Below, piece after piece: positions 7,441-8,476 of a DNA stretch of 64,000 nt. The first letter of the stretch is position 1; each line of letters opens with the position of its first letter. The notes under the pieces were generated by a model that saw only the letters and a program-made list of their open reading frames with translations, made no database searches and had not been told where the DNA came from. The translations under genes and the position numbers were made by a program. Source of the stretch: Hymenobacter sp. 15J16-1T3B (GTDB lineage: Bacteria > Bacteroidota > Bacteroidia > Cytophagales > Hymenobacteraceae). The stretch lies in contig NZ_JAJFAV010000012.1 of the NCBI RefSeq assembly GCF_020711235.1, positions 62,001 through 126,000 on the forward strand, read 5' to 3'.

Positions 7441-7480
7441 TACTAGTCGCTGAAAATTATTGGCTCGAACCCAGGTTGGG

Positions 7481-7510
7481 TTGTACACTTGCAAAATCTT
7501 GCTAATTTTG
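7481..7510 (+). promoter_or_regulatory. Bacteroidota promoter upstream of phhA leader
   Basis: TTG at 7481-7483, a 19-bp spacer and TAATTTTG at 7503-7510 match the Bacteroidota sigma-ABfr consensus TTG-N19-TAnnTTTG perfectly. Transcription would start near 7517, just before the ATG of the 30-residue leader ORF. It is the only plausible promoter I see for phhA. Confidence 0.75.
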
Positions 7511-7518
7511 CCTACATC

Positions 7519-7611
7519 ATGCTGCACCAGGCCATTAATCGCAACTTTACCATGTGCGTCCTGCCCGTCAAATGGGCCGGAGCCGTGCCGTTGCATACCG
7601 TCTGGAAATGA
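7519..7611 (+). CDS. Putative 30-residue leader peptide of phhA
   Basis: A short ORF of 30 codons (MLHQAINRNF...VPLHTVWK) starts within a few bases of the predicted transcript start, so it would be leaderless or nearly so. It contains one Phe, two Trp and two His codons. Its 3' half covers CGGAGCCG (7578-7585), which is exactly complementary to part of the terminator stem at 7654-7661. Ribosome position on this ORF could therefore affect terminator folding. No homologue is recognised; it may be only a non-translated leader RNA. Confidence 0.4.
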   Translation: MLHQAINRNFTMCVLPVKWAGAVPLHTVWK

Positions 7612-7648
7612 AGCCTCCGCAGCTAGTTTTTCCGACCTGAAATCAACC

Positions 7649-7685
7649 AAGCCCGGCTCCGTACCACGGAAGCCGGGCTTTTTTT
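7649..7685 (+). terminator. Intrinsic terminator / candidate attenuator in front of phhA
   Basis: A strong hairpin (AAGCCCGGCT-CCGT, loop ACC, ACGG-AAGCCGGGCTT, one bulge) is followed directly by a T run. It ends only about 14 bp before the phhA ATG, leaving no room for a separate promoter, so phhA transcription must read through it. An alternative pairing of 7578-7585 with 7654-7661 would break the stem. The arrangement suggests attenuation. Confidence 0.75.
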
Positions 7686-7699
7686 CTGCCTAGCGAGTT

Positions 7700-8476
7700 A
7701 TGAAAGCCCCGCACTTCACCGCCGAAGACCACCTCGTGTGGAAAGTTCTCTTCGACCGTCAGACCGCCCTGCTGCACCGCCGGGCCGCGGCGCCCTTTAT
7801 GGCCGGGGTGCAGCGTCTCGGCCTCAGCCGCGACGCTGCACCCGACCTCGACGCCCTGACCGAGCGCCTGCACCAGCTGACCGGCTGGGAGGTCGTGTCG
7901 GCACCCGGCCGCGTCGACGATAAAACGTTTCTGGCCTTGCTGGCCGAGCGGAAGTTCCCCGTTACGCACTGGGTCCGCTCGATGCAGTTCTTCGACTTCC
8001 TCGCGGGCCCCGACCTCTTTCACGACGCGTTCGGTCACTTACCGCTGCTCACCGACCCCGAGTGGGCGGCTTGGCTGGCGCACTTCGGCCAGATAGCCCG
8101 CCACCACCTCCACGACGAGCAAGCGGTGCAGCAGCTGGTGCGCTTGTTCTGGCACACCGCCGAGTTTGGCTTGGTGCAGGAGGGTGAGACCCTGCGCGTG
8201 TACGGCGCCGGGCTGCTGTCGTCGGCCGCAGAGCTGCACCACTGCCTTGCTGCCGAGGCGCCGCGGCAACCCTTGGAAGTCAGCGAAGCCCTGGCCACGC
8301 CCATCGTGCGCGACGGGTTTCAGCAGCAGTACTTCGTGCTGCCCGCCTGGGCCGAACTGGCTGATGCCACCGCCGAACTGGTGGTGCGACTGACTGCCGT
8401 GCCCGCTTCCGGTGCCCCCGAAGCGCCTCAATCCGCTAGCCGCACTGCCGCCGTGGTGCCGGGTTTGTCGTCCTAG
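7700..8476 (+). CDS. phhA: Phenylalanine 4-monooxygenase
   Basis: This is a non-haem iron, tetrahydropterin-dependent hydroxylase converting phenylalanine to tyrosine. At 258 residues it is of the short bacterial type without the regulatory domain. The iron ligands are visible as His108 and His113 (FHDAFGHLPLL) and Glu155 (HTAEFGL). The C-terminal 20 residues are a disordered tail. It is preceded by a promoter, a short ORF and a terminator, so its expression is probably controlled by transcription attenuation. The trp/aroF genes nearby suggest a local cluster for aromatic amino acids. Confidence 0.93.
   Translation: MKAPHFTAEDHLVWKVLFDRQTALLHRRAAAPFMAGVQRLGLSRDAAPDLDALTERLHQLTGWEVVSAPGRVDDKTFLALLAERKFPVTHWVRSMQFFDFLAGPDLFHDAFGHLPLLTDPEWAAWLAHFGQIARHHLHDEQAVQQLVRLFWHTAEFGLVQEGETLRVYGAGLLSSAAELHHCLAAEAPRQPLEVSEALATPIVRDGFQQQYFVLPAWAELADATAELVVRLTAVPASGAPEAPQSASRTAAVVPGLSS

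Follow-up and report, generated by a model that had tools for sequence, protein, structure and literature searches.

Ribosome-mediated transcription attenuators of the trp, his and phe type are exemplified by trpL, hisL and pheL of E. coli, in which a short leader ORF and the competing hairpins 1:2, 2:3 and 3:4 precede a gene of amino acid metabolism, with an intrinsic terminator right before the structural gene. The usual hallmark of a trp-type leader is a run of control codons. Strong clues of leader-peptide attenuation have been described upstream of amino acid biosynthesis operons in Flavobacterium psychrophilum (PMC9723704), and short ORFs reminiscent of leader peptides have been described in long 5' UTRs of Bacteroides thetaiotaomicron (PMC7366714).

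Here we describe a unit upstream of phhA in Hymenobacter, which is very probably a ribosome-mediated (trp-type) transcription attenuator acting in cis on this gene. It has in common with trpL, hisL and pheL the leader ORF, a predicted set of competing hairpins, the position of the terminator and a target gene of amino acid metabolism, and differs from them in that it has no run of codons for a single amino acid and has phhA as its target, in that region 2 lies within the ORF, with the stop codon 20 nt past it, and in that its translation would start nearly leaderless. With the F. psychrophilum cases it shares the phylum and the location upstream of genes for amino acid biosynthesis; neither a phhA nor a Tyr leader is mentioned in the passages of PMC9723704 considered here. 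The open-licence literature, subscription papers lying outside its scope, yielded no report of phhA attenuation or of Tyr-run leaders.

Attenuation seems to be ordinary in this genome, because trpE, hisG and pheA (all identified by gene family) have leader peptides: WWW before trpE, HHHHH before hisG and Phe/Tyr (FF/YY) before pheA. The Trp leader MTLASTTPLLLWWWPNRSAGRDLTIACIA (MTLASTTPLLLWWWPNRS) is followed by a terminator-like hairpin, recognized by eye, before trpE (L215:8286-8490 on G000:C3, upstream of the window), and the His leader on the minus strand of G000:C1 (L219) ends in GHHHHHSSPGEE before hisG. On the minus strand of G000:C11 (L218), two tandem Phe/Tyr-rich leader ORFs, MLTSQAQYFFSYYFYYAHA and MLRTARFFYGFYYFFYRKKRGPVCAV, lie 5' of the prephenate dehydratase domain of pheA, and each is followed by a terminator-like hairpin (by eye) and a T run; this is apparently a double attenuator for Phe and Tyr. 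Thus, the view taken in an earlier note on this DNA, that the phylum has seldom provided descriptions of such attenuation, should be qualified, given the clues in PMC9723704 and the trp, his and phe leaders of the genome itself. The oddity of phhA paralogue B is a well-kept attenuator without a codon run.

The phhA locus and its promoter

The window, i.e. the whole stretch of 64,000 nucleotides that was analysed, belongs to a 6.3-Mb genome. Its phhA gene encodes a protein of 258 aa with a Biopterin_H domain (PF00351, 126.6 bits), in which His108, His113 and Glu155, which we take to be the iron-binding residues, sit in motifs common to the solved bacterial PhhA structures. PhhA converts phenylalanine to tyrosine. 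All parts of the attenuation unit proposed in the earlier note could be located upstream of this gene, its function being predicted from them, and they are listed below.

7481-7483, + strand: -33-like TTG of the promoter, from the sequence
7503-7510, + strand: -7 box TAATTTTG (TAnnTTTG), from the sequence, 6/6 fixed bases
7515, + strand: predicted transcription start, with the box at -12 to -5 by the rule given in PMC9723704
7519-7611, + strand: leader ORF, 30 codons and TGA, MLHQAINRNFTMCVLPVKWAGAVPLHTVWK, from the sequence and from in-frame gaps in alignment A2
7558-7582, + strand: hairpin 1:2 (GTCCTGCCC / GGGCCGGAG), predicted competitor of the antiterminator, better than each of 100 shuffles
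7578-7588, + strand: region 2 inside the ORF, CGGAGCCGTGC, predicted 5' strand of the antiterminator, duplex p 0.025 here
7651-7661, + strand: region 3, GCCCGGCTCCG, common to antiterminator and terminator, from pairing in the alignment
7649-7685, + strand: predicted intrinsic terminator, stem-loop 7649-7680 and T run 7679-7685
7700-8476, + strand: phhA paralogue B (PF00351), aromatic amino acid hydroxylase, the putatively regulated gene

The Bacteroidota promoter that had been proposed here is borne out by the box TAATTTTG, which matches TAnnTTTG at all six fixed bases. Among 83 distinct elements from relatives, all six are present in 63 and at least five in 81, where the finder had demanded at least four. 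The TTG lies 19 nt from the -7 box, as read directly in the sequence, and is weakly conserved, because only 23 of the 83 distinct elements carry a TTG at equal spacing. A generic sigma-70/terminator scan, whose promoter pattern differs from that of Bacteroidota, reported neither promoter nor terminator on the + strand and picked up this hairpin on the - strand. In F. psychrophilum the -7 box spans positions -12 to -5, according to PMC9723704, which would place +1 near 7515 and therefore the leader ATG about 4 nt inside the transcript. Of the earlier proposal of a 30-codon ORF beginning at +1, the ORF stands, while its start would be off by about 4 nt if the box indeed occupies -12 to -5.

The terminator with its T run was likewise found where it had been described, with the stem at 7649-7680, the T run at 7679-7685 and the phhA ATG at 7700, 14 nt from the end of the T run. 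This gap amounts to 10-17 nt in eight of nine elements of the genus, and to 25 nt in the ninth (L006), where the distance is measured to the beginning of the protein match. Upstream of the promoter, a block like TTGGCTCGAACCCAG (7460-7475 of the window) lies immediately 5' of the -33 TTG. Similar blocks recur in the genus loci L001-L007, and less clearly in L008, even where the upstream gene looks different; the block is possibly a candidate regulator site.

Conservation of the leader and of its competing RNA structures

Genes for phhA were collected by protein search from 58 genomes and from 204 genomes of the family, plus one further locus, and upstream DNA was retrieved for part of the genes found. 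Twenty-eight regions already seen to have Tyr-rich leaders were set aside, and the remaining 99 were scanned with a finder requiring a -7 box with at least 4/6 fixed bases, 3-9 nt, an ATG, 20-36 codons and a T run. The class labels used below were thus assigned from the leader type (class A, Tyr-rich; class B, the scanned paralogue that is not Tyr-rich). The unit is present in 88 of the 99 regions, with at least 5/6 box bases in 86 and 6/6 in 68, and these sequences, like all related sequences compared here, are not independent of each other. Of the 11 misses, eight belong to phhA genes from other families of the order, one (L080) can be seen to possess the element, with a T run that is interrupted, and in the last two (L120 and L126) the element was not seen. 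By chance the finder reports 49 of 1760 dinucleotide shuffles (8 at >=5/6) and one of 612 other tiles of the window. With a stricter rule (-7 box of at least 5/6, 3-9 nt, ATG, ORF of 10-45 codons, T run) applied to both strands of the 64 kb, this site alone had a T run, and seven other sites were reported without one.

A covariance model of the element was searched against 38 genomes and gave one full-length match of at least 63 bits in each of the 11 genomes of genera g1 and g5 among them, all 11 matches lying upstream of phhA paralogue B, with no further match above 37 bits among the matches listed. Other full-length matches score at most 32 bits; of the eight inspected, most resemble gene ends with a terminator, one is a His leader and one is ambiguous. 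This His leader, MKGTLAHKHHHPARSNSFGADCLWIC (L230, G014:C17, minus strand), is a weak match of the phhA model, and the longest ORF found downstream of it, 759 nt on, resembles a histidine biosynthesis gene by eye. Rfam gave no match at gathering score over the window (the best local match has 18.2 bits against a cut-off of 41), and a known RNA family, riboswitch or T-box was accordingly rejected as a candidate. No similar DNA was found in plasmid records.

The 30 codons of the leader ORF occupy positions 7519-7608, with the ATG at 7519-7521, 8 nt after the -7 box, and the TGA at 7609-7611; in 76 of the 88 elements the ORF has 28-31 codons. In a nucleotide alignment built blind to reading frames (A2; 51 of the 88 elements, picked to thin near copies, with the most divergent ones omitted), every one of the 149 gap runs between the beginning of the ORF and region 2 has a length divisible by three (145 of length 3, 4 of length 6), in total contrast to 30 of 189 between the stop codon and the terminator, although these runs are not independent events, since related rows have gaps in common. 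Stops in codons 5-16 of the 83 distinct leaders are absent from frame 0 and occur in 76% for frame +1 and in 48% for frame +2, the openness of frame 0 being built in as a requirement of the finder. The conserved ATG, stop and frame support the view that the leader ORF is translated. Its residues are another matter: in 36 pairs in which no leader was used twice, dN/dS is 0.84 in the N part, 1.05 in the hairpin part and 0.60 in the C part, and the substitutions in the N part are spread evenly over the three codon positions (50, 41 and 44). Therefore, the leaders firmly keep their frame, but no single amino acid and no peptide motif. Rare codons were considered as a special feature of the leader and dropped, as its adaptiveness (0.54, compared with a gene mean of 0.68) is matched by 18% of gene windows.

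Within the ORF, the segment that had been reported as complementary to the terminator stem was located as the core CGGAGCCG (7578-7585; extended, CGGAGCCGTGC at 7578-7588), complementary to GCCCGGCTCCG at 7651-7661. This pairing of regions 2 and 3 is found in 92.6% of cells in the 51 aligned elements and falls to 42-47% when the partner is shifted by one column, while for the terminator 85.9% of cells are paired in the same 51 elements, with a mean energy of -17.1 kcal/mol over all 88. The covariance check proposed earlier for 7578-7585 and 7654-7661 came out with the pairing kept and compensatory changes: the column pair 74-155 of the antiterminator is UA in 38 rows, CG in 6, GC in 3, UG in 3 and unpaired in 1 of 51. 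Column 155 is paired with the ORF in 50 of the 51 rows, and its identity is explained by the antiterminator, because the terminator (region 4) leaves it unpaired in 33 of the 51. Cells with both sides changed number 13, compared with 2.3 in shuffles; the column pairs of this kind (3) are not exceptional, as 66 of 500 shuffles reach that count. Taken element by element, 77 of the 88 antiterminator duplexes are better than shuffles at p<=0.05 and 54 of them at p<=0.01, and 11 miss 0.05. Hairpin 1:2 reaches p<=0.05 individually in 44 of the 88, that of the Hymenobacter window included (median p 0.055), and its stem persists while its sequence differs by lineage, e.g. CGTCC/GGACG, TCTGC/GCAGA and TTCGC/GCGAA. 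As a whole, the RNA 7517-7690 folds 3.6 sd below its own shuffles.

These comparisons support the alternative pairing as a real feature of the predicted RNA, mutually exclusive with the terminator through the shared region 3. Hence, the comparison with relatives suggested in the earlier note did not refute the unit: the relatives preserve the reading frame of the ORF and, with compensatory changes, the alternative pairing.

Leader codons and the tyrosine-run leaders of other phhA genes

In class B, Tyr in codons 5-15 is absent from 61, single in 21 and double in one of the 83 distinct leaders (out of 88), and Phe is absent from 30, single in 52 and double in one. The longest run of the same residue in the control window does not exceed three in any of the 83, so that a control-codon run is absent; the lack of a Tyr run follows in part from the prior sorting by leader, which is itself borne out by the protein tree for the 21 g1 and g5 rows included. 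The unit of paralogue B thus fails the hallmark of the trp-type leader and, judged from its structures, would be a divergent member that works like one. The earlier suspicion that the signal may be unusual agrees with the lack of a Tyr run, the 0-2 Tyr in codons 5-15 and the dN/dS of 0.84 in the N part.

Of the eight residues examined, only Asn is present in codons 5-17 of every one of the 83 leaders, followed by Ile (79), Cys (73) and Leu (73). Asn, Cys, Met, Lys, Ala and Val each exceed the maximum of a codon-position shuffle, in which, as columns are shuffled, shifts in the alignment and common ancestry are confounding factors. We do not claim Asn as the sensed amino acid, as five other residues also exceed the shuffle and Leu is equally universal in a somewhat wider stretch of the alignment.

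The second phhA gene of the genome (G000:C8), whose product is 45% identical, has the Tyr-run leader MLTRFSSRYYYRSCQPTGFGSGRVCATAPEQTT, containing MLTRFSSRYYYRSCQP, and shares with paralogue B the gene family, a -7-like box a short distance before the ATG (4 nt at this second gene) and a terminator before the gene. Elsewhere too, the control stretch at phhA is rich in Tyr codons (YYYYY, YYYY, YYAYAYY), and 15 such leaders have 3-6 Tyr in codons 5-15, in contrast to the 0-2 of paralogue B. A Tyr sensor before phhA makes sense, because PhhA makes tyrosine from phenylalanine. In a scan for short ORFs only, irrespective of promoter and terminator, a Tyr-rich ORF (at least 4 Tyr in 8 codons) was found in 14 of 52 phhA upstream regions and in 6 of 1040 shuffles, at least four of the 52 genes duplicating other locus numbers. 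This count is far above chance, yet most of the 52 phhA genes of the order and class are without one. The 52 regions come from 54 loci, L168 and L189 being below the minimum length (L168 is short of downstream DNA only, and L189 has 361 nt upstream). The antiterminator duplex reaches p<=0.05 in only 4 of 26 Tyr-run elements (of 28 class A regions, without L021 and L025, which have long leaders); with 22 of the 26 missing it, a like working of the Tyr-run elements is argued from codons and terminator only. The leaders of trpE, pheA and class A phhA share a Cys close to their C-terminus, as well as RNA resembling TTGCGTGC or TGTGCGAC (TIACIA, PVCAV, RVCATA).

The unit of paralogue B is probably related to the Tyr-run leader of the other phhA. 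In a 6.5-kb tandem stretch of G130, the Tyr-run element of the second phhA matches the class B model over its full length, with 23.4 bits. In this genome (L217, G130:C1) and in other g5 genomes, tandem phhA paralogues have a leader each, and only that of the second contains a Tyr run. In the protein tree, the 21 class B proteins from genera g1 and g5 group together (support 96/100), separate from class A and the outgroup. The six class B proteins from genus g6 are placed away from them, at the end of a long branch, and class A does not form a single group. For these last two reasons the tree gives no more than a hint of the order in which duplication and loss took place. A loss of the Tyr run in class B is the simpler reading, short of proof, because Tyr runs occur in the opposite part of the tree as well as in other families.

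Mode of action and rival explanations

Comparison of sequences establishes the predicted promoter box, the translated frame, the terminator, the competing pairing and the absence of a control run. From these parts, a working scheme can be proposed. Transcription would start about 4 nt before the short ORF, which would be translated almost leaderless. A free-running ribosome would pass or occupy region 2, hairpin 1:2 would re-form behind it, region 3 would then pair with region 4, and RNA polymerase would stop before phhA. A ribosome stalled around codons 6-14 would mask the 5' arm of hairpin 1:2, so that region 2 could pair with region 3, block the terminator and let phhA be transcribed. Translation that does not occur at all would also result in termination. 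We infer the direction of the response accordingly, with a stall giving expression and free translation giving termination, and the stall would arise from shortage of one or several charged tRNAs.

The lack of a control run invites other explanations. An attenuator that has decayed, with its Tyr sensor gone and the remnant merely setting a constitutive level of read-through, would agree with the weakly constrained leader residues and with 83 distinct leaders without a Tyr run (in a set sorted by leader beforehand). A dead switch, however, would be expected to drop a pairing for which the terminator has no need, but at least two genera have retained the antiterminator pairing together with the frame and the promoter box, and we regard decay as unlikely. 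An arrest peptide of the TnaC type, whose nascent chain would bind Phe, Tyr or another small molecule and stall the ribosome, could do without control codons, and the narrow range of leader lengths (28-31 codons in 76 of 88) and the over-representation of certain residues in codons 5-16 speak in its favour. Such a motif would have to be held in the residues, but dN/dS reaches 0.84 in the N part, where the changes are even over codon positions (50, 41, 44), and 0.60 in the C part, and this makes the explanation improbable.

The remaining two explanations dispense with the leader peptide. The strong overall fold (z -3.6) and the nucleotide conservation within the genus could be taken to indicate a metabolite-binding riboswitch or another structured RNA in which the ORF is incidental, but the frame-preserving gaps and the retained start and stop favour translation, and local Rfam matches in the window lie far under the cut-offs, so this is very improbable. 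That promoter and terminator enclose a unit of about 170 nt would also suit a small RNA gene, with phhA transcribed from elsewhere; such a gene would hardly be expected only 14 nt before the phhA ATG, or to accompany phhA paralogue B in 88 of 99 regions with no other match above 37 bits among those listed in 38 genomes, and there is scarcely any chance that this is the case.

Thus, we favour the trp-type attenuator, and the question becomes what it senses. Possibly, though with somewhat less than an even chance, the run was lost following duplication of a Tyr-sensing phhA attenuator, while the whole RNA switch was kept through the radiation of two genera, and now senses general translation speed or a different charged tRNA via mixed codons. 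These codons would tentatively be Asn, Ile, Cys, Lys, Met and Thr among codons 5-16, a set we put forward with similar reserve. If true, the attenuator of paralogue B would read something other than the amino acid made by its own gene.

With Tyr-rich leaders before phhA in several families, phenylalanine hydroxylase joins the genes that are apparently regulated by attenuation. Within one cell, the two paralogous phhA genes of this genome provide a natural pair of leader units, only one of which has a Tyr run, and this makes it testable how the signal of an attenuator is altered or lost.
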